This document shows, in pieces, positions 1,033 through 16,808 of a DNA stretch of 31,185 nucleotides. Positions within the stretch are counted from its first letter, which is position 1; the number at the start of each line of letters is the position of its first letter. Source of the DNA: a virus. A program made the translations under genes and the position numbers. The notes beneath the pieces are model-generated. The model was not told the DNA's origin. It searched no databases and was given only the letters and a program-made list of their open reading frames with translations. Where the stretch lies: IMG/VR virus record IMGVR_UViG_3300042542_001171, positions 1 through 31,185 of that record. One strand, written 5' to 3'.

Positions 1033-1769
1033 GTTGTTCTCGCTTTGATGATGGCTGCTAGGTTGTATAGGTTTCCGCGTTTGTCTATCTCGTTCTTCTT
1101 TATCGTTCTGTAAACTTCTCTTTCGTTTATTCCTAGCCACAACGCTATTGCTTCTACATCTAGGTAGAAGATCTTCTTTGGGTTGCTCATTGCTAGTGCC
1201 ACCAATCGCAGTACCGTCCAGGTTTGTTTGCATCCGAAGCAAGTTACTTCTGCTGTTAGGTTTTCTGCATCTACTACTACGAACTTCTTACAGTCATCGC
1301 TTGGACATGGGATTCGTCTTGGCTGTTCTGAGAATCGTTTGGCAGCTGCTCTTCCTTTGGCATGGATCGCGTTTACTTCGTTAGCAAAGTCTAACGCCCA
1401 TGTCTGATTTAATGACCATTCCAGATGTGCCAAGTGGAATTGCGTCGTTGCTTTGACTTCGGCTTCGGTGCTCTTCTCTTTGGCTACCAGCGCCGGCGGT
1501 GTCAGTTTCCTGTCTTGGCGGATCTGGCTCTCCCAGGAATGAAGGGTGCGCAGTAGCTCGGTGGCCATTGAGAAGTCCAGAGCTGAGACGTTGATTCCGA
1601 TGCTTCGTTCCTGGCTGGCGCTTCCCGATCCTGTCCTTGCTGGCATCAGGTACTGCCCTGCTTCTCGGTGGAGTTCTGGCAATTCTGAGAGCTGTGTTCT
1701 GATCTTGGATCCGCATCGGTTGCATGCTCCTTGTGATTCGACTTCCTTTGCGCAGATCGTGCATTCCAT
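1029..1769 (-). CDS. zinc-binding helix-turn-helix protein
   Basis: 246 residues from the ATG at 1769, which overlaps the upstream TGA by one base (TGATG). An open frame extends further upstream but lacks this coupling. The N-terminus has a CxxC...CxxC zinc ribbon (CTIC, CNRC). The middle is helical. Near the C-terminus CPSDDCKK and CFGC give a second zinc site, then DVEAIALWLGINEREVYRTI looks like a helix-turn-helix. Two zinc sites plus such a domain suggest a DNA-binding protein, perhaps regulatory or acting at the origin that lies upstream. Similar layouts are annotated as DNA-binding proteins in actinobacteriophages. Confidence 0.75.
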   Translation of the reverse strand: MECTICAKEVESQGACNRCGSKIRTQLSELPELHREAGQYLMPARTGSGSASQERSIGINVSALDFSMATELLRTLHSWESQIRQDRKLTPPALVAKEKSTEAEVKATTQFHLAHLEWSLNQTWALDFANEVNAIHAKGRAAAKRFSEQPRRIPCPSDDCKKFVVVDAENLTAEVTCFGCKQTWTVLRLVALAMSNPKKIFYLDVEAIALWLGINEREVYRTIKKNEIDKRGNLYNLAAIIKARTT

Positions 1770-2149
1770 CAGAACGGTATCCCTTCTGGCTCTTCCTGTC
1801 GCTGGCGTCCTCGGCTCCAATAATCTGGCACTTCTTCTTGGCTTGGCTCTTCGCCCTTCATTCTGAAGATGATCTCTATCTTCTGGCATCGGTGGCTGGC
1901 TAGTATCGTCTTTGGTTTTGCCGGGTTGCTTTGTCGGATTCGATTGGCTGATCTTAGCGATGCTTCAAATGATGTGTTGGTTGGGTGGAGCTCGTAGCTG
2001 CGTAATTCCTGGATTCGCTTGATGATCTCTTCAGCGATCGTCAGCGGTTCTGGATCTAACTTTGTTGGAAATCCTGTTAGGCAGTCGCCTTTCCAAATAA
2101 GTTTTCCACAGGCTGTGCAGTAGATCGGTTTAAATTCTTTATTACTCAT
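1769..2149 (-). CDS. putative zinc-binding protein of unknown function
   Basis: 126 residues, starting MSNKEFKPIYCTACGKLIW. The CTAC pair near residue 11 and a further cysteine in GDCLTG, with HRC near residue 87, suggest a zinc ribbon. The C-terminus is charged and rich in Glu, Arg and Gln. It is the first gene to the left of the iteron/DnaA region, so its transcript would start in or pass through that region. A role in origin control is possible but unproven. It is coupled to the zinc/helix-turn-helix gene. Confidence 0.65.
   Translation of the reverse strand: MSNKEFKPIYCTACGKLIWKGDCLTGFPTKLDPEPLTIAEEIIKRIQELRSYELHPTNTSFEASLRSANRIRQSNPAKPKTILASHRCQKIEIIFRMKGEEPSQEEVPDYWSRGRQRQEEPEGIPF
2102..2110 (+). 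promoter_or_regulatory. DnaA-box-like nonamer (TTTTCCACA)
   Basis: Fits the relaxed DnaA consensus TTWTNCACA exactly. It has the same orientation as the perfect box at 2288 and lies inside the 5' part of the neighbouring coding region, about 180 bp away on the other side of the iterons. Confidence 0.45.
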
Positions 2150-2176
2150 TTGATCTGTTCCTGAGCCTGCTGTTCC

Positions 2177-2220
2177 ACCGTTCCGCGTTCCCCCTTATAG
2201 GGGGGGAACGGCGGAACGGT
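2177..2220. repeat. 18-bp inverted repeat built from iteron sequence
   Basis: The left arm ACCGTTCCGC (2177-2186) pairs perfectly with GCGGAACGGT (2211-2220). Inside it GTTCCCCC (2187-2194) pairs with GGGGGAAC (2202-2209). One G (2210) is bulged and the loop is TTATAGG. The outer arm is the same 10-mer as the tandem iterons, so two iterons face each other here. There is no T-run after it on either strand, so it is not a standard terminator. Confidence 0.85.
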
Positions 2221-2245
2221 TTGGTCGCTTTTGCCGAGGTATTCT

Positions 2246-2283
2246 GCGGAACGGTGCGGAACGGTTCGGAACGGCGGAACAGT
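2246..2283 (+). repeat. tandem 10-bp iterons (GCGGAACGGT)
   Basis: Copies at 2246-2255 and 2256-2265 are identical. 2266-2275 differs at its first and last bases, and a degenerate copy follows (GGAACAGT). The period of 10 bp places each copy on the same face of the helix, as expected for cooperative binding of an initiator or repressor. Confidence 0.85.
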
Positions 2284-2287
2284 TAAG

Positions 2288-2296
2288 TTATCCACA
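2288..2296 (+). promoter_or_regulatory. perfect DnaA box (TTATCCACA)
   Basis: Exact match to the bacterial high-affinity DnaA consensus. It lies directly beside the iterons and five bases before the end of the primase-polymerase gene. It suggests use of host DnaA at the origin. Confidence 0.65.
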
Positions 2297-2300
2297 GGCT

Positions 2301-4403
2301 TCACTCCCCTTCCCAGGCGTTTACGTCGCCGATTAGGAATTGCTTCTTGTGTTTGTAAAGGTACTTCTGTCCATGCTTTCGGTATTCGATGTGGCCACTG
2401 GCGATTAGTGATTCTAGGGTTGCGCTGAGTTCGTCGTTGCCAATCTCTATGTGGCTGGCTCGCAGGTTCTTTCGTAGCTCGTTCTGGCTCATTTCGTCAC
2501 CGCTTGCTTCGAAGAACTGGCTTATCTCTGCCATCTTCTGCTCCCTGGTTGAGATGTGGATTGCTCCGCCGGTGATGGTGACGGTGATCGTGCCATCCTT
2601 GTTGCTCTTCAAGTTTGCTATCCCTAAGTCTTTGGCGTCCTGGCAGATGGCGCGGACGAATCCCGGCCGATCTTTGGTTACTTTCAGATTCAGGCAGCCG
2701 TCCAAGCCCCTGCCGAATGGCATCGCTACTTCGACTGCGATCGCTACGCCGTCGATGTCTGCTCGCTTGGCCTGTGCTCCGATGGCGTAGTTTCCTCTGG
2801 TGTCTTTGCTCTTCGTGACGTGGTCGATGGTCAAGATGCAGGCGTTCTCCATGCGCATCGGGCGCAGTATGAGCTGTGAGAATGTGGTTGCGTCCTTGTT
2901 CTTTTCTAGATCTAGCCCTAGCAGGTTCATAGCTGCGTTGACGCCGTCGACGACGATCAGGGATGGCTTGTGGATGGCAATCTCGCTTTGGATCACGTCC
3001 ATGACGCCCCTGGTCATACCTTCGTCCGGGTTCGCGTATCGGAAGTGGCGCAGGCCGCCTGTCTCCACGCCCATCGTCTTGAGTCGGTTCTTGATGCCGC
3101 GTGCGCTGTCTTCGAAGTCCAGGTAGAAGACTGTGTGCTTGGCTTTGAGTTCTTGGCGCACCGCTTCTAGGGCTATCCAGGTTTTGCCGCTTTCGCTTTC
3201 CCCAAAGATGGCGTTGATCTTGTTTGCATAAAGGATGAAGTTGCCATCTTCGCGCTTTAGAATTGATGGCCCCGGTTCGTCTTCGAGCTGCATATCGGTG
3301 ATGTCCTGTGGGATCCAAGAGCTGGTGGTTATCTCTTCGTTCTCGTCATGTAGCTGCACATGGCTTGGCTTATTGGCCGCTTCTATCTGATCCCAGTCAG
3401 TTTTCAGGTCACTCGTTGCCCCGAATCCCTGCGTTCTTAGGTGGCTCGCTGCCGACTTGAAGTCTCCCCGGTGCTCTATCTGGGTGTAGGCGGCAAACTT
3501 GGAGTAGCTGCTCTGGGCTTGAAATATTGTCGAGGTGCTGAACACGAAGAGCTTGCCGTTGCCGTTGAAGTTGGTCGTTGCCGAGATTCCTTCGTTCTTG
3601 CCTGGTCGTCGCCATGCGGTGGCTTCGCCTTTGCTATAAACCTTCGTCCAGCCCAGTGGTTCTAGGATTGCTTCCCAGGTGACGCTCTCTTCATAGGCAT
3701 CGCCGGGGCTGGTAACTCCGCCTTCTTTGCGTGGCTTTGTTTCTTCGCCGATCCACTCTGGCTTCGGTACTTCGTCGTATAGGGCGAAGTATTGATGGAT
3801 TATGGCTCTCTCTTCCATCGTAAATGTCGGTATCGTCTCGATCGATCCTGCGCTGATCTGCCAGGGATTGCCAGATGGATGGCATCGGCCACCCGATGGA
3901 GCTGTGATCACGAATCCGCCTTCGCCGCGTGTTTCGGCTAGGCATCCGCCGTCTTCACCTGCTGCCTGCGCGATCTTCGTGTTGCCTGGCACTTTGCCGT
4001 CGCTGATTCGGTATAGCCAGTGGATTCCGCCCGATGGCGTGGTTTCCATGTATCCGTTGATCAGCCTTGTCCAGAGCTGCCCATGCTGGCTCTGTTCGAA
4101 TATCTCGCGTAGCTCGATGTGGAGTTTCTTGGCGACTGCTCTGCCTTCGAGTTCGAGCATTTCGAGGTTTCCGGATATCGCTCCGCAGATGATGCCGACG
4201 CCGTCTTGCTTCTTTCCGAACCACCCCATCAGTTCTTCGGCTGTTGGTCGCTTCTTCTGGTAAGCCGTCCATGCTGGAAGTCCTGGTCGCTTCGATCCAT
4301 CGGCTGCTACTGGGACGGCGCATATGCCTGCAGCTGCGAAGCGCAGAGCTGTGGTTAGTACGTCGTTGCTTCTCTTCTTATTGGCTGTCTCTGATTCCGT
4401 CAT
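2301..4403 (-). CDS. bifunctional primase-polymerase / RecA-fold helicase
   Basis: 700 residues. The N-terminal region (about 15-200) looks like the archaeo-eukaryotic primase-polymerase domain: KRPGLPAW near 38, VGIICGAISGNLEMLELEG (69-87) holding the acidic motif, and SGGIHWLY with the catalytic-type His near 128. The first motif reads LELEG rather than the usual D-x-D, so activity should be checked. The C-terminal half is a RepA/DnaB-like ATPase: Walker A GESESGKT (401-408), LDFED near 429, Walker B IVVDG (483-487), and TIDHVTK. The last 80 residues look like a winged helix. It probably primes and unwinds phage DNA from the adjacent origin. A G-rich Shine-Dalgarno (AGGGGGG) precedes the ATG. 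Confidence 0.88.
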   Translation of the reverse strand: MTESETANKKRSNDVLTTALRFAAAGICAVPVAADGSKRPGLPAWTAYQKKRPTAEELMGWFGKKQDGVGIICGAISGNLEMLELEGRAVAKKLHIELREIFEQSQHGQLWTRLINGYMETTPSGGIHWLYRISDGKVPGNTKIAQAAGEDGGCLAETRGEGGFVITAPSGGRCHPSGNPWQISAGSIETIPTFTMEERAIIHQYFALYDEVPKPEWIGEETKPRKEGGVTSPGDAYEESVTWEAILEPLGWTKVYSKGEATAWRRPGKNEGISATTNFNGNGKLFVFSTSTIFQAQSSYSKFAAYTQIEHRGDFKSAASHLRTQGFGATSDLKTDWDQIEAANKPSHVQLHDENEEITTSSWIPQDITDMQLEDEPGPSILKREDGNFILYANKINAIFGESESGKTWIALEAVRQELKAKHTVFYLDFEDSARGIKNRLKTMGVETGGLRHFRYANPDEGMTRGVMDVIQSEIAIHKPSLIVVDGVNAAMNLLGLDLEKNKDATTFSQLILRPMRMENACILTIDHVTKSKDTRGNYAIGAQAKRADIDGVAIAVEVAMPFGRGLDGCLNLKVTKDRPGFVRAICQDAKDLGIANLKSNKDGTITVTITGGAIHISTREQKMAEISQFFEASGDEMSQNELRKNLRASHIEIGNDELSATLESLIASGHIEYRKHGQKYLYKHKKQFLIGDVNAWEGE

Positions 4404-4412
4404 GCTGCCCCC

Positions 4413-5528
4413 CTAGTTTGTTGCTTGAATAAATCTCTTAATAATCCATTCCACGACCGGCACTGCTACCGCGTTGCCTAGTTGCTTGTACCGGTGGCTG
4501 TCTGCTTGTCCTTCTGTCCAGTTATCTGGGAATCCTTGTAGTCGCTCGCACTCTGTCGGTGTCAGGCGTCGGACGGTAGCTGCGTGAACCATCGGCGTAT
4601 TGCCACCGCCGGTTCCCATTGTTGCCGCTAATGTGTTGATCACGTCGCCTTGAATCCTTACGTCTTGATGGTTCTTTGCGTAGAAGAATGTCGGTTGAAT
4701 GACTAGATCGGTTGCGCCTTTGTAATCTCTAGCTTGAAGTGATGAAGATATTTCATCCAGTTGATAGTCGCCGAATGCTTGAAGTCTTGCCACTTCTTGT
4801 ATGACTATTTTATTTTCATGCACTTGTTGTTGCTGTGGGAATTTGTAGTCGCTGGCTTGAAGTGAACCTACTGTTTCGGATCCAATGAGGCTATTGCTTC
4901 CAGCGCCGTCTGAAGTTTTATAGGTAGGGTCTTTCCTCTTCGTGTTGCTCTGTTCAGAATGCCTTGCGCTGCTCTCGGCGAGAGCGAGTATTTCTGCAGG
5001 TGTTCTCCAGTCGTCTCCAAGATTGCCGACAATGAAGACTCGACGGCGTCTTTGTGCGACTCCGAAGTGGCGAGAGTCAAGCACACGCCACGCGATGCTA
5101 TACCCGCGCTCTTCCAGCGCTCTGATAACGGTTCCCATATCTCGTCCTTCGTTAGATGAGAGAAGTCCAGGGACGTTTTCGAGGATAAAGCTTTGCGCTT
5201 TGGTTTCGTCAAGGAGTCTGCATATCTGCCAGAATAATCCTGATCGTGATCCAGTGAGTCCTGCTCTTCTACCTGCAACGGACAGATCTTGGCATGGAAA
5301 TCCGCCAGTGATAATTCCGTTTGCTGGATCAAATCCTGCATTGATAAGTTGTACACCTGTTACCCCCGTTATGTCGCCGTAGATTTCTGAGTTTGGAAAT
5401 TGTTTTGCTAGAACCTTCTGTGCGTGTTTATCCCATTCAACAGCTGCGACGACTTTGATCCCTGCTCTTTCCATTGCAAGATCAAATCCGCCAATCCCTG
5501 CGAATAATGACACTCCAGTTTTTATCAT
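4413..5528 (-). CDS. DNA (cytosine-5) methyltransferase
   Basis: 371 residues with the ordered motifs of C5-cytosine methyltransferases: SAM-binding FAGIGGFDLA (9-18), the catalytic PCQ with C79 in GGFPCQDLSVAGRRAG, ENVPG (117-121), QRRRRVFIVG (159-168), then a variable recognition region and QLGNAVAVPV near the C-terminus. It transfers a methyl group from S-adenosylmethionine to C5 of cytosine. No restriction enzyme gene is beside it, so it is an orphan that most likely protects phage DNA from host restriction. It overlaps the upstream gene by ATGA, with AAGGGGG before the start. The target sequence cannot be read from the protein. Confidence 0.95.
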   Translation of the reverse strand: MIKTGVSLFAGIGGFDLAMERAGIKVVAAVEWDKHAQKVLAKQFPNSEIYGDITGVTGVQLINAGFDPANGIITGGFPCQDLSVAGRRAGLTGSRSGLFWQICRLLDETKAQSFILENVPGLLSSNEGRDMGTVIRALEERGYSIAWRVLDSRHFGVAQRRRRVFIVGNLGDDWRTPAEILALAESSARHSEQSNTKRKDPTYKTSDGAGSNSLIGSETVGSLQASDYKFPQQQQVHENKIVIQEVARLQAFGDYQLDEISSSLQARDYKGATDLVIQPTFFYAKNHQDVRIQGDVINTLAATMGTGGGNTPMVHAATVRRLTPTECERLQGFPDNWTEGQADSHRYKQLGNAVAVPVVEWIIKRFIQATN

Positions 5529-6277: not shown

Positions 6278-6567
6278 TCGCATTCCCCCTTCTCTGTTTG
6301 GGTGTTGCTTTGTTGGTTTGCCAACGCTGTTTCTTTCATTTCCTTGACGACGTCGCTCATCGTCCTGGTAGGAATATTTGTCCGACTGTTGATCTCTTCC
6401 ATCTCAATCATGGCTTCTTTTATCTTGGTTATGAATTGATCCACCATCGAGACGCTGATTTGAATTTCGTCATCTGTTCCGAGATCGACGATTCTGATTC
6501 GATCTCCGTAAAGTGATATGGCTATGTCGATGCCGCCGATCTGTGCGCGGCTTGAGTAGATGCTCAT
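6256..6567 (-). CDS. hypothetical protein with coiled-coil middle
   Basis: 103 residues. Not recognised. The start at 6567 shares ATGA with the exonuclease stop. The N-terminal part (MSIYSSRAQIGGIDIAISLYG) looks beta-rich. The middle is helical (VDQFITKIKEAMIEMEEINS) and the C-terminus is polar, ending with two cysteines in GECECQTSQN. It lies between the exonuclease and the SSB-like gene, so a part in recombination is possible but not shown. Confidence 0.6.
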   Translation of the reverse strand: MSIYSSRAQIGGIDIAISLYGDRIRIVDLGTDDEIQISVSMVDQFITKIKEAMIEMEEINSRTNIPTRTMSDVVKEMKETALANQQSNTQTEKGECECQTSQN

Positions 6568-7298
6568 GGTTTCGTGTCTCCGTTGCATGCCTTTGCTAGG
6601 TCTTCGCTGAATGGTTGGAAGTATGGGCAGTAATTGCATAGGCGATCGGCGCTCGCTGGTATCAGTGACCAGAGATCCGGGCTGTTCTCGACGTCCACCG
6701 TCGCAAGCAACGAATAAACGTTATCGAGACGTTCTAACGCTTTGATCGCAACGCTTTCGTCGTAATCGTAAAGTTCCACATGCATGTCGTCGAGGCTGCC
6801 CCCGGTAGGCAGGTAGACCAGCGCCACTTGATTGACTTCGGATCCGCTTTGTGCTTTGCCGTAGCCGTAGAGCTGTACTTGGACTAGCTGCTGTTGCGTC
6901 GCGCCTTCTTTGCGTCGCTTCTCTAATCCAGTGCTGCCTGTGGTTTTCCAGTCCATCACGATTCCGCGCCGCTTGTCGAAGAGGTCGACGGTTCCGGTGA
7001 GATTGGCACGAATCGTCACCTTCTGCTCGACTTCGTAATCTTCAAGTTTGGCGAAGATATCTGCTAAATGTGCATGGATCGCTGTTCCTACCTGCGCTGC
7101 CCAGTTGCCCCCACCCATCTCGTTTGGTTTATCCCAGTCGAGAAGTTTGTAGGCAATCCTTCGGGTGCATTCGTGTCCGATTTCGCTTGGCCCTATGTAG
7201 ACCTGTTTCGATCTCGGTGTCCAGGTTCCTGCTCTGGTGATTATTGCTGCGAGTTCATCGCCCAGCGCTTTGCCTGGTGCATGTGGTGATACAAACAT
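6564..7298 (-). CDS. Cas4/RecB-like PD-(D/E)XK exonuclease with Fe-S cysteines
   Basis: 244 residues. Nuclease motifs are in order: GTAIHAHLA with H75, GTVDLF with D105, VMDWKTTG giving D116-x-K118, and QVQLYGYG with Q142 and Y144. C44 in HECTRR together with C221, C224 and C238 (CNYC...AC) makes the four-cysteine set that binds a 4Fe-4S cluster in Cas4/AddB-type nucleases. Such enzymes resect DNA ends to give single strands for annealing or recombination. It starts directly after the TAG of a 29-codon gene and is followed by ATGA coupling. Its partner is probably the YqaJ-like accessory protein two genes upstream. Confidence 0.85.
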   Translation of the reverse strand: MFVSPHAPGKALGDELAAIITRAGTWTPRSKQVYIGPSEIGHECTRRIAYKLLDWDKPNEMGGGNWAAQVGTAIHAHLADIFAKLEDYEVEQKVTIRANLTGTVDLFDKRRGIVMDWKTTGSTGLEKRRKEGATQQQLVQVQLYGYGKAQSGSEVNQVALVYLPTGGSLDDMHVELYDYDESVAIKALERLDNVYSLLATVDVENSPDLWSLIPASADRLCNYCPYFQPFSEDLAKACNGDTKP

Positions 7299-7714: not shown

Positions 7715-8101
7715 CTAGTACCAGCCGTAGCCGGTCGTTTGCTTTTGATGTTTCCAGTGACTCCATGCCGCGCATGGGCCGCCGGATCCGTATTTTCTTC
7801 CAATATACGCCAGAGCTGCGACAACCTGGCTTACCCTGCTTTCGGGGTGTCGCATTCCTAGATTCTTGTATGTTCCGGCAAGTAGCTGTCCGACTCCGGC
7901 TGCGCTGGATGTTGGATTGTTGACTGATCTCCATGCGCTCTCTTTGCCTACGAGCTGCGTGAAGCATTGGTATTGCTTTGGCTTTAGCAGTTCTTCTGCG
8001 AGCTGCTTCGGGTCGATGTGTTGCATCGCTGTGCGCTTCTCGTAGACGACCGGGATCGCCTGGGTTGGATTTAGTGCTAATTGTAGGATCGTTGCTGTCA
8101 T
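7715..8101 (-). CDS. lytic transglycosylase-like (SLT/lysozyme fold) protein
   Basis: 128 residues. Residues about 45-128 match the SLT-type fold: the catalytic Glu is in GKESAW, followed by VNNPTSSAAGVGQLL, then ALAYIGRKYGSGGPCAAW and a C-terminal GYGWY. The first 20 residues are moderately hydrophobic and could be a weak signal or anchor. Such enzymes cleave peptidoglycan between N-acetylmuramic acid and N-acetylglucosamine. It is coupled by ATGA to the WhiB gene, far from the lysis genes near 14 kb. That places it with early or middle genes, which is unusual for a lysin. Confidence 0.75.
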   Translation of the reverse strand: MTATILQLALNPTQAIPVVYEKRTAMQHIDPKQLAEELLKPKQYQCFTQLVGKESAWRSVNNPTSSAAGVGQLLAGTYKNLGMRHPESRVSQVVAALAYIGRKYGSGGPCAAWSHWKHQKQTTGYGWY

Positions 8102-8562
8102 TGCGCTGATCCCAACGGTGACGACGAATCGTCTGATTGCGTACTTCTCTTCGGGTTTGATTGGTCTTCTCGCTTCCTTGCCTGATTCGCTTCGGTGAAT
8201 ATGCGGTACACATAGGTCACTTTCAGGTGCATCAATCTGGCAATATCTTCGGCTGAGATTCCCTTGCTTCGTAGCTTTACTATTCGCTCGGCTCTTATGC
8301 TTCGCTGGCTACGTTGCTTGTCTTGTCCTCTTTCAAGTGGCGTCTTGCCACCAAAGAATCCATACGGGATCTCTTCTCTGATTGCGTATTCCAAGCATTC
8401 CTTTCTTTCGGTACAGGCTCCGCAAATTCTGCGAAGTTCTGGGAGGCGCTTTGCCTCTTCGACTTTCCCATCTGGGAAGAATAAATCTGGGTCTTCGATG
8501 TCTGCGCATAGTGCGTTTCTAAATAATGGGATTCTTTGTAGGAATGTCGCTGGCGCTATCAC
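8098..8562 (-). CDS. WhiB-family iron-sulfur regulator with helix-turn-helix tail
   Basis: 154 residues from a GTG at 8562 that overlaps the upstream TGA (GTGA). In-frame ATGs at 8580 and 8604 are alternatives. The WhiB signature is complete: C19, then C47-x2-C50-x5-C56 for a 4Fe-4S cluster, and GFFGGKTPLER matching the family G-[VI]-W-G-G turn. WhiB proteins bind the primary sigma factor and are confined to Actinobacteria and their phages. Residues about 90-122 (IVKLRSKGISAEDIARLMHL) form a helix-turn-helix not found in typical short phage WhiBs. It likely controls phage or host transcription. Confidence 0.9.
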   Translation of the reverse strand: MIAPATFLQRIPLFRNALCADIEDPDLFFPDGKVEEAKRLPELRRICGACTERKECLEYAIREEIPYGFFGGKTPLERGQDKQRSQRSIRAERIVKLRSKGISAEDIARLMHLKVTYVYRIFTEANQARKREDQSNPKRSTQSDDSSSPLGSAQ

Positions 8563-8909
8563 TGTTTGCGAGCCATCCATTGCTCTAGGTTTTCTACGAC
8601 CCATGCCTTCTCAATGCCGGCGTTGCGTCTTTTAATGATCACATACGCCGGGGGTGTTTCATCTAGGTTTCTTGCCTTTGCGTAGTTCTTTGCTTCGGTG
8701 ACAGCTTCATCCCAGAATGCAGGAAGTGTAATCGCTTTCCTATTTTTTAGTTCTAGAATGTAAGTTTTGCCGGCGACGATGCATACGATGTCGCCTTCGT
8801 CGTTGCTTCCGGCCTTGCTCAATCTTTCGGCGTTCGCTCCAACGGATCGCAGCCACTTCATCACTGCTGTCTCGAATAATGCGCCTTTGCGTCCGTTTGG
8901 GTTTGCCAT
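8559..8909 (-). CDS. Holliday-junction-resolvase-like PD-(D/E)XK nuclease
   Basis: 116 residues. Core nuclease motifs: E13 in GALFETAV, D40 in NDEGDIV, and E53-L-K55 in YILELKNRK, the layout of archaeal-type resolvases and related VRR/Mrr-like nucleases. The glycine-rich start with basic residues (MANPNGRKGA) and GSND fit strand-exchange substrate binding. It probably resolves four-way or replication-fork junctions. Together with the exonuclease and SSB-like protein it makes a recombination module. Family membership within PD-(D/E)XK is not certain. Confidence 0.75.
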   Translation of the reverse strand: MANPNGRKGALFETAVMKWLRSVGANAERLSKAGSNDEGDIVCIVAGKTYILELKNRKAITLPAFWDEAVTEAKNYAKARNLDETPPAYVIIKRRNAGIEKAWVVENLEQWMARKQ

Positions 8910-14938: not shown

Positions 14939-15025
14939 TTAGATTATTGATGCTTCTGCTTCGTCGACGGCATCGTCTATTGTCCTGGTTGGTTCCCTGG
15001 TGCAATTGCCATCGGCGTAGGTCAT
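14939..15025 (-). CDS. 28-residue micro-gene
   Basis: Reads MTYADGNCTREP and ends DEAEASII. Its ATG overlaps the upstream TAA by one base (TAATG), and it fills most of a 105-base gap. The acidic helix in the C-terminal half looks protein-like. The unexplained function and small size leave room for chance. Confidence 0.45.
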   Translation of the reverse strand: MTYADGNCTREPTRTIDDAVDEAEASII

Positions 15026-15252
15026 TATTTTGTTAGAGCTGCGATCTCTTCGGCTGATAGTCCGAGCTTTGCCAATTTAGCCTGCGCCGATGCCTTTGCA
15101 TCTGCCGCTGCCTGCTCCGCTGCTTCACGTTCGGCTTGGGCAGTTGCTGCGGCGATGGCATCTAGCTCGCGCTGTGCGATTTCTTCCGCAGTTAGCGGAA
15201 CCTCGGTGACTTCGCCTGTTGCGCAGTTTACTTCGATTTTGATGTCTGACAT
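15025..15252 (-). CDS. small phage tail-region protein with Ala-rich helix
   Basis: 75 residues from the ATG at 15252; AAGGAG lies six bases upstream and an open frame upstream lacks such a signal. The N-terminus MSDIKIEVNCATGEVTEVPL is a beta strand pair followed by LTAEEIAQRE, then a long Ala/Glu-rich helix and GLSAEEIAALTK. This small protein type commonly follows tail fibre genes in phages and may be a fibre chaperone or fibre tip component. Function inferred from context. Confidence 0.6.
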   Translation of the reverse strand: MSDIKIEVNCATGEVTEVPLTAEEIAQRELDAIAAATAQAEREAAEQAAADAKASAQAKLAKLGLSAEEIAALTK

Positions 15253-15262
15253 TTGTTGCTCC

Positions 15263-15775
15263 TTATGCGTTTGAGATTCCGTAGAGGGTGAAGGTTGAGT
15301 ATTGGACAAAGTTTCCACCTGTTGAAAATGTCAATGAAGTAATTGCTGAGGTACTTGACCAAAGACCAGCAGAGATTCCTTGATAAATAGTTGAGGCATT
15401 ATTTTGATTAGCACCATCAGCACTTAAAGATTTGTTATATGATGATGAAGCATAATTTGTAATGTATATTTCACCATTTCCAAAAGTGCTTGCTGTTGCG
15501 GCAGAACCAGGAATATAAAACAAATGATTGTATCCAAATGCTGCTTGCGTGTAACTAATTGCGCCGCCACCAGCATCGCCAAGCCATCTTAAAGTGTAGT
15601 TAGTTGATAACCCATTTGGTGCAATTACTAATCCAGCAAAAGCGGCACCTGAATCTGATCTTGCAGAAACTTTAACTACTAAATCAGTATAAGTGGCAGG
15701 GATGCTTGAAAAAGTAACGGTGGCAGCGCCACCAGAACCAACAGTATTAGAAGCAATCTTTGTATATGTAGGCAT
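15263..15775 (-). CDS. tail appendage/adhesin protein, paralogue 3
   Basis: 170 residues. Shares with the next two upstream genes the start TKIASNTVGSGGA, the block TVTFSSIPATYTDLVV, a central Gly/Asn/Ser-rich variable part, and the end WSSTSAITSLTF...STFTLYGI. These features suggest a beta-sandwich exposed on the tail tip, a likely receptor-binding or carbohydrate-binding unit. Base composition is markedly AT-rich relative to neighbours. Coupled to the upstream paralogue by a shared base. Confidence 0.7.
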   Translation of the reverse strand: MPTYTKIASNTVGSGGAATVTFSSIPATYTDLVVKVSARSDSGAAFAGLVIAPNGLSTNYTLRWLGDAGGGAISYTQAAFGYNHLFYIPGSAATASTFGNGEIYITNYASSSYNKSLSADGANQNNASTIYQGISAGLWSSTSAITSLTFSTGGNFVQYSTFTLYGISNA

Positions 15776-16278
15776 TATGCCGCCTTAATTCCGTAGAGGG
15801 TAAATACTGAACCTATGCTAAATGTGGCAGATGAATCTAAACCAATTTGAATTGTATTTATAGCTGAAGTGCTACGCCATAACCCAAAAGTAAGATTAGT
15901 TTCTAAAGATCCAGAAGTTCCTCTTATACTAAAATTTTTATTCGTAGTTGTATTTGAATAATTCATAAAGTTCATTATGACAAATTGCGAAATATTTGAT
16001 AAAGAATTGAGAAAATCCCAATAAACTTTAGTTTGATTAGCCCCTCGACCAGAGCCAGCGCTTGTTCCATTTCCGGATAAAACAGTCCAAGAATAATTTG
16101 ATCCAGTATCAATAGAACCGTTTCCAACCCTCACCCAACCATCAGTCGTTGCAGATATGCCACTAATTGCACCTACAATAACTAAATCTGTATAAGTGTT
16201 GGCTATGCTTGAAAATGTAATTGTGTTGGCACCCGAACTAAGGGTATTAGTTGCAATCTTGTCATAAGTAGTTGGCAT
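15775..16278 (-). CDS. tail appendage/adhesin protein, paralogue 2
   Basis: 167 residues with the same frame: YDKIATNTLSSGANTITFSS, TYTDLVIVG, a variable middle (SNYSWTVLSGNGTSAG), then LWRSTSAINTIQIGL and SVFTLYGIKAA. Its middle differs from the other copies, while both ends are conserved, as expected for adhesins with a fixed fold and a changing binding face. Segments within it have about 25% GC. An AAGGG-type Shine-Dalgarno precedes the ATG. Confidence 0.7.
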   Translation of the reverse strand: MPTTYDKIATNTLSSGANTITFSSIANTYTDLVIVGAISGISATTDGWVRVGNGSIDTGSNYSWTVLSGNGTSAGSGRGANQTKVYWDFLNSLSNISQFVIMNFMNYSNTTTNKNFSIRGTSGSLETNLTFGLWRSTSAINTIQIGLDSSATFSIGSVFTLYGIKAA

Positions 16279-16280
16279 CT

Positions 16281-16808
16281 TTAACCCTTAATTCCATAAA
16301 GTGCGGCTGATGTGTATTGAGTAAAAGTTGCATTTAATACAATTGAGTTAATTGCTGCTGTGTTACGCCAATTGCCTGAGCTAAACCATACATATCCGCT
16401 GCCATTGTAATCAACACCAATAAAAGAACGATTAGTTTTATATTTATTGGTGTTTGCATAGTCAAGAATGTCAATAATTGAAACTGCTGCCTGAGTTGAA
16501 CCAGTCAAAGATGCAAACACGCTTGTTTGGTTTGCCGCACCTAAAACGCCAACGGCTGCGCCTGTTCCGTATAAGTCGTGAAATGAATAATTTGAACCAC
16601 TATCGGAGTTGTATCTCATTGCGACTGTTCCGTTATCGCTACTGTTTCTGCTAAATAAACGAATCTGCAAATGCTGATAGGTGCTAGGAATTGAACTAAA
16701 AGTTATGCTTGATGCGCCACCTGCGCCAATGGTAGTTGTCGCAATGCTTTGATAGTCCCCTACAAGAGTGCCCGAAATGCTAGAGGCGATGATTCCTAAG
16801 TTTGGCAT
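16281..16808 (-). CDS. tail appendage/adhesin protein, paralogue 1
   Basis: 175 residues. It has an added N-terminal stretch (MPNLGIIASSISGTLVGD) before the common block YQSIATTTIGAGGASSITF, SSIPSTYQHLQIRLFSR, and ends NWRNTAAINSIVLN...ALYGIKG. The extra N-terminus could anchor it to the upstream fibre protein. It is first in translation order of the three copies. Coupled to the fibre gene by a shared base at 16808. Confidence 0.7.
   Translation of the reverse strand: MPNLGIIASSISGTLVGDYQSIATTTIGAGGASSITFSSIPSTYQHLQIRLFSRNSSDNGTVAMRYNSDSGSNYSFHDLYGTGAAVGVLGAANQTSVFASLTGSTQAAVSIIDILDYANTNKYKTNRSFIGVDYNGSGYVWFSSGNWRNTAAINSIVLNATFTQYTSAALYGIKG

Follow-up and report, generated by a model that had tools for sequence, protein, structure and literature searches.

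Genes and Repeats of the Locus

The window analyzed here, i.e., the whole stretch of viral DNA under study, is one entire IMG/VR record of 31,185 bases. A 151-bp gap separates the stop codon (2301-2303) of a minus-strand gene of 700 residues from the start of the next gene on the same strand, and this gap and its surroundings hold two matches to the DnaA box, four direct 10-bp repeats (iterons) and a palindrome containing the 10-bp repeat (Table 1). The direct iterons follow each other in steps of 10, 10, and 8 bp, and their unit is present in each palindrome arm. GGAACGG occurs seven times in the window, six of them inside 2178-2274, and the Poisson probability of six copies in 97 bp is approximately 5e-16. 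The DnaA boxes taken alone are not significant by count; TTWTNCACA is matched four times over the full window vs. 1.9 expected, and 11 of 100 shuffles reach this number.

A preliminary description, made from the sequence alone, had placed two DnaA boxes, three tandem 10-bp iterons with a 10-bp period and an 18-bp inverted repeat derived from the iteron unit together beside the primase-polymerase gene. The layout, both boxes and the inverted repeat were confirmed, and the side can now be specified, as the repeats lie 3' of that gene. The direct copies are four instead of three and not strictly periodic, and the second box is present but sits inside the zinc-knuckle codons of the next gene. GC skew, put forward there as a check, showed no inflection at 2.2 kb in the window and is uninformative on the origin. 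No AT-rich unwinding element was obvious by eye in 2150-2300.

Table 1. Coordinates of the features at the locus (positions in the window).
Feature	Position	Strand	Remarks
DnaA box 1	2288-2296	+	TTATCCACA; directly after helicase gene
DnaA box 2	2102-2110	+	TTTTCCACA; within zinc-knuckle codons of next gene
Four direct iterons	2246-2283	+	GCGGAACGGT at 2246 and 2256; TCGGAACGGC at 2266; GCGGAACAGT at 2274
Spacer, direct iterons to palindrome	2221-2245		CTCGGCA...CGACNAA on - strand; partly conserved
Palindrome	2177-2220		Arms 2177-2194 / 2203-2220; 18 pairs, one-base bulge
Apex	2190-2206		C/G-rich with T/A loop; CCCCCTTATAGGGGGGG in window, CCCCCTCTTTAGAGGGG in relatives
Extra partial iteron outside palindrome	2170-2176	-	CTGTTCC on +, GGAACAG on -
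Initiator candidate (helicase gene)	2301-4403	-	Prim-Pol + AAA_25 RepA-like helicase + C-terminal winged helix
Winged-helix coding part, proposed iteron reader	2334-2570	-	Residues ~612-690
Next gene	1769-2149	-	Small C-x2-C protein, PHROG 10480 (unknown function)

In the product of 2301-4403, Pfam identified above the curated cut-offs a Prim-Pol domain (PF09250, residues 19-182) and a RepA-like, RecA-type AAA_25 domain (PF13481, residues 393-533, E 8.2e-9), and reported no SF3/D5 family. An AlphaFold2 model of the C-terminal 111 residues, built on a 22-sequence alignment, adopts a helix-helix-helix-strand-strand fold with a core pLDDT of approximately 77-85. Its top VIA-align matches included the DNA-binding domain of FurB, other winged helices and, as the best match, the DNA-binding domain of Zur (Z 11.4 over 69 residues at 1.4 A). 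Foldseek with the same model returned nothing at E <0.001, Pfam winged-helix matches for the C-terminus were below cut-off only, and a sequence search of solved structures gave nothing significant. The model of the full-length protein was poor (pLDDT 52.7) and was not used.

No two-winged-helix Rep initiator was found in the adjacent genes by the Pfam and PHROGs scan, and no integrase among the window proteins scanned. As regards nucleotide similarity to sequenced phages, a methyltransferase gene alone was matched. The early region (90-780, 4413-5528, 6564-7298, and 8098-8909) contains an HNH nuclease, an endonuclease VII and a C5 DNA methylase, as well as an exonuclease (PHROG 1674), a RusA resolvase and a WhiB-like regulator, the last of which points to an actinobacterial host. 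Elsewhere in the window, positions 15001-16800 have a GC content of 37-43% vs. approximately 50% in the remainder, the AT skew switches sign there, and the two genes scanned in it, 15263-15775 and 16281-16808, have no PHROG match, which suggests that this stretch was acquired recently.

Conservation of the Module Among Related Loci

About 95 related loci were compared, some of which are overlapping stretches of one contig. Close relatives of the helicase protein are encoded at 57 loci, and a profile search added a third group at 59-60% identity. Comparison shows that the architecture is conserved: across the first two clades, 41 distinct versions of the module keep the order DnaA box, direct iterons, spacer, palindrome, and next gene with the second box. 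In their alignment GCCTGTGGATAACT of box 1 is nearly invariant, and the distance between the two boxes is fixed at 199 bp throughout clade A and lies at 198-201 bp in clade B. Extra genes are found between the helicase gene and the module at loci L016, L020, L045, and L053, where an undisturbed module follows the inserted genes. These insertions carry differing genes, always ahead of DnaA box 1 and just after the helicase stop codon, a site that looks like an insertion hot spot.

Six iteron types, namely GTTCCG, GCGCC, GAACCT, GATCCG, GTTTCCC, and GTTCCTC, were assigned by us from the palindrome arm. Within one locus the direct copies and both arms are mostly of one type, and the comparison shows that the iteron copies of a locus change together between lineages, with compensation in both hairpin arms. 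In the 41-sequence alignment, both partners vary at six of the 18 stem pairs, and these six stay paired in every sequence, while three further pairs are unpaired in approximately half of the sequences. Compensated cells numbered 94 vs. 35 in shuffles, and the covariation score of the palindrome was 0.308 vs. 0.122 after shuffling, a signal that was lost when the partner columns were slid. Furthermore, a C/T change at columns 92/132 was compensated in all 12 sequences carrying it. The relatedness of the sequences inflates these compensation and covariation counts. Downstream of the helicase gene at L130, L133, L071, and L079, the iteron array is expanded to about double its length by additional copies in direct and inverted orientation.

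The co-occurrence of the DnaA boxes is equally shown by comparison. Among 95 typed loci, 52 carry both boxes, 41 neither and two the first only, the latter (L059 and L078) being cases in which the contig or sequence stretch ends before the second site. The codons TGT GGA AAA CTT under box 2 are invariant in all aligned relatives. Over residues 1-40 encoded by the next gene, the degenerate codons under the box are invariant in 4/4 cases vs. 1/8 at other invariant residues (one-sided Fisher p = 0.01, calculated by hand). Given this strictly paired occurrence and the frozen codons, the boxes are likely real, lineage-specific elements that the module type does not require, and we lean toward regarding them as functional accessories, any role of DnaA itself being inferred. 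The boxes as core of the module were rejected, since they are absent from 41 related loci. At four box-less loci with GTTCCG iterons (L119, L131, L134, and L137) an iteron-like GGAACGGTT is found at the zinc-knuckle codons where clades A and B have box 2.

Natural Exchanges Between Iteron Types

The relation between protein and repeats is seen in a pair of near-identical phages, L187 with GAACCT iterons and L230 with GTTCCG iterons. Their Prim-Pol domains are 99% identical, their AAA domains and zinc proteins 100% and their winged helices only 35%. At the DNA level the two share mostly 90-100% identity as far as a point 267 nt short of the helicase gene's end and then diverge across the winged helix and the iterons. 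Identity resumes, mostly at 92-100%, 5 nt ahead of the next ATG, and the apex CCCCCTCTTTAGAGGGG is unchanged inside the exchanged segment. The GAACCT version recurs in L145, from another metagenome, and the GTTCCG version in L256 (the same region as L148). Assembly chimeras are thus unlikely, as each version is found in two contigs from different metagenomes. The same pattern was observed upstream in L214 and L198 (99/100/43%), where the L198 contig ends soon after the module.

All pairs with AAA domains at least 95% identical were taken into the comparison. Winged-helix identity was 91.6% in pairs of the same iteron type (n = 150) vs. 40.2% in pairs of different type (n = 12), while the respective values for the zinc protein were 86.6 and 82.2%. 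The 12 different-type pairs stem from few independent exchanges. On the winged-helix tree five iteron-type changes are needed, which is the minimum for six types, compared with eight on the AAA tree, nine on the Prim-Pol tree and eight on the zinc-protein tree. A minor iteron change (GTTTCCC vs. GTTCCTC) was seen with winged helices 77-82% alike.

Comparison thus shows that winged helix and repeats are inherited jointly and exchanged as one cassette among related phages. That the winged helix of the helicase itself reads the iterons is very likely, although the support, from swaps and trees, is comparative only and without binding data. The zinc protein is disfavored as the iteron binder, because the exchanges cover winged helix and repeats and leave it 100% unchanged. 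The main caveat is linkage, in that it cannot be excluded that one recombination tract carried the adjacent winged helix and repeats without functional coupling, but this is made less likely by the exact exchange ends and the single-tree fit.

The Constant Apex and the Wider Class

An exact scan of viral contigs for CCCCCTCTTTAGAGGGG found at least 120 stretches, and a palindrome with inverted loop served as control, for which the scan was complete. To recognize AAA_25-like genes, a profile was derived from AAA_25 domains confirmed by Pfam; its seeds came from the motif set and somewhat favor that set. Such a gene lay within 3 kb at 90/114 viral apex loci vs. 1/25 loop-inverted control loci. 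Outside the family of the window, 37 of 60 apex loci had one, representing 21 protein clusters at 60% identity, and the apex was mostly located 28-260 bp past the stop codon and occurred in both orientations. The domains fused to AAA_25 vary and include Toprim, CHC2 zinc ribbon, PriCT_2, DnaB N-terminal and DNA polymerase A. Almost all clusters carry repeats of their own, with the best arm hexamer recurring 2-12 times (median 7) within 150 bp vs. 1-4 in controls (Mann-Whitney p 3e-8).

In addition, iterons and a palindrome follow the AAA_25 gene in Alteromonas phage XX1924, Microcystis phage MinS1, Arthrobacter phage Peas and two Streptomyces plasmids, and iterons follow it in Verrucomicrobia phage P8625; the apices differ among these phages and plasmids. 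No such module was found, by eye and with a simple hairpin finder, beside the AAA_25-like proteins of BFK20, Wooper, Vortex, EnJE1, and Vibrio phage 1268.

In bacterial genomes the apex alone is not diagnostic, since only 7/119 loci lie near an AAA_25 gene, the rest being mostly unrelated REP-like palindromes. Repeated hexamers were found at five of the seven AAA_25-near loci (L313, L322, L365, L373, and L381) vs. 1/112 others. In MAGs of Oscillospiraceae and Anaerolineaceae (L268-L386) the 17-bp palindrome is abundant and apparently dispersed in REP-like fashion, mostly without AAA_25 or iterons nearby.

A bolder reading is that the constant apex (C4-5, T/A loop, G4-5) would be a common helicase-entry signal for RecA-type RepA-like helicases in many phages and some plasmids. 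It rests on the apex being constant while iterons, winged helix and primase domain (Prim-Pol, Toprim, CHC2 zinc ribbon, PriCT_2, or DnaB N-terminal) are exchanged. The function of the apex is inferred, and we hold this extension to be tentative, with the balance slightly against it.

Probable Origin Function and Alternative Explanations

It is very likely that the module is a phage replication origin used by the product of 2301-4403, an inference drawn from comparison without replication, binding or read-depth data. This reading is strong because relatives keep the layout and yet carry repeat sequences that vary with the lineage, with near-identical phages swapping winged helix and repeats. 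The precedents of SaPI Rep, Cch2, pRN1 and PLE RepA add support, and on the other side stand the flat GC skew, the lack of an obvious AT-rich element, the poor full-length model and the phages with AAA_25-like proteins but no such module. The origin proposed in the preliminary description is therefore supported as the best reading, with comparative evidence behind it. Of the binders it named, the C-terminal winged helix of the helicase is favored over the zinc protein on account of the natural exchanges, and the DnaA boxes of its layout are a lineage-specific addition and not core. Its view that such a layout is unusual for a lytic-looking siphovirus calls for qualification, as similar layouts follow AAA_25 helicase genes in many phages and two plasmids.

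The putative mechanism is that of a self-loading initiator, with Prim-Pol, RecA-type helicase and winged helix in one polypeptide. The winged helix would bind the tandem iterons and those in the palindrome arms, physical binding being inferred, and would thereby gather helicase subunits, perhaps as two rings, at the site. The palindrome may then open at its short T/A-rich apex, via melting or hairpin extrusion, and the opened apex would offer single strands for helicase loading, after which the attached Prim-Pol would prime; apex melting, loading and priming are all inferred as well. In the lineage of the window, the flanking DnaA boxes may let host DnaA aid opening or recruit parts of the host replisome.

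Three rivals were considered, each of them very unlikely. According to the first, the module is an operator, in which a repressor sitting on the iterons, either the winged helix (autoregulation) or another regulator, controls transcription of the next gene or operon. The module does lie directly upstream of 1769-2149, with box 2 inside that gene, and iterons often double as autoregulatory sites. However, no sigma-70-like promoter was found in 1700-2700 (actinobacterial promoters may be missed), and other AAA_25 families keep the module 3' of the helicase gene even when the next long ORF is on the opposite strand (e.g., L238 and L178, by mechanical ORF calls). Moreover, a compensated palindrome with a constant apex is unnecessary for an operator.

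The second rival regards the palindrome as an RNA element or terminator, i.e., a hairpin formed in RNA at the 3' terminus of the helicase mRNA, and is favored by the strong, compensated stem that follows the gene on its 3' side and covaries in both halves. However, the palindrome has no T tract and a search for terminator-like sites found 0, while the change of the direct iterons with the arms and the link to a DNA-binding domain are left unexplained. In pRN1, mutation of a terminator hairpin was without effect, whereas the larger stem-loop was essential (PMC4234260). Finally, a DnaA-led origin, with host DnaA as main initiator and the iterons merely modulating, could draw on the strict pairing of the boxes and the frozen codons of box 2, but the boxes cannot be essential to the type because 41 related loci have the same iteron and palindrome architecture without either.

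Under the preferred reading of a replication origin, the sequence rule of an AAA_25 gene followed by iterons and a constant-apex palindrome predicts origins in many uncultured phages. The likely iteron-reading domain could be named from natural exchanges alone, and the natural chimeras make initiator-origin specificity directly testable. Two questions are raised, namely why iteron types diversify and swap, with origin-directed attack (as for PLE and Odn) and replicon compatibility as candidate causes, and by what route a hexameric helicase of RecA type might self-load without a separate initiator.

Comparison With Known Systems

The open-access literature, searched to a limited extent, yielded no description of this origin class and no exact apex sequence. 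The mycobacterial prophage RepA (PMC7157519) was rejected as a counterpart, being a different initiator of 320-350 residues with an N-terminal helix-turn-helix.

Among the nearest counterparts are SaPI/PICI Rep and SCCmec Cch2, initiator-helicases with a C-terminal domain acting on short repeats (PMC7581432; PMC6092414). In SaPI Rep and Cch2 this domain recognizes iterons just 3' of its own gene (PMC7581432), the iterons being element-specific and the putative ori of Cch2 a three-iteron site. Iterons directly 3' of an initiator-helicase gene are also found here, with origin function inferred, while iteron specificity set by the C-terminal domain of the helicase is met by comparison only. The helicase there belongs to SF3/AAA+ (D5-like or MCM-like), whereas here it is a RecA-type AAA_25, and in PICI origins two iteron sets surround an AT-rich region (PMC6092414), whereas here the iterons flank a GC-rich palindrome with constant apex and also help form it.

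In the Sulfolobus plasmid pRN1 a single protein, ORF904, unites Prim-Pol, helicase and C-terminal winged helix, as does the present gene with its 3' palindrome. A stem-loop of 100 bp located 3' of the ORF904 gene is necessary for replication and, together with the replication operon, sufficient for it (PMC4234260). The fold and not the sequence of that stem-loop is conserved, and a similar one was proposed for phage BIP-1 (PMC4234260). pRN1 differs in its SF3 helicase, the absence of iterons and a 58-nt loop, compared with the AAA_25 helicase and clear iterons here. RSF1010 RepA/RepB'/RepC with oriV (as in PMC4234260) offers iterons, hairpins, a RepA-type helicase and a primase. Its hairpins (ssi) are recognized by the primase. 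RSF1010 RepA belongs to AAA_25, and a RepA-like helicase is present here too (PF13481). In RSF1010, however, these are three separate proteins and RepC binds the iterons, whereas here a single polypeptide would cover all three functions and no separate iteron-binding protein is implied, as specificity follows the C-terminus of the helicase itself.

The alpha protein of phage P4 with its ori (as in PMC4234260; PMC6092414) is also a single polypeptide carrying a primase, a helicase and a winged helix that binds iterons, but the primase is of Toprim type, not Prim-Pol, and no constant-apex palindrome is described in the literature searched. In PLE RepA of Vibrio cholerae, DNA-binding domains and iterons covary and swap with the origins as modules, with an origin-directed phage nuclease as the suspected selection (PMC8263062); it differs in its N-terminal RepA_N domain, semi-palindromic iterons of approximately 30 bp and lack of a fused helicase or primase. 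Iteron plasmids with DnaA boxes share the iterons beside DnaA boxes but not the two-winged-helix Rep, of which the Pfam and PHROGs scan of the adjacent genes found none.

By analogy, we believe that the module would work like SaPI Rep/ori and pRN1, but with a RecA-type helicase. This case is set apart by that helicase, the combination of iterons with a constant-apex palindrome, and the DnaA boxes added in this lineage.
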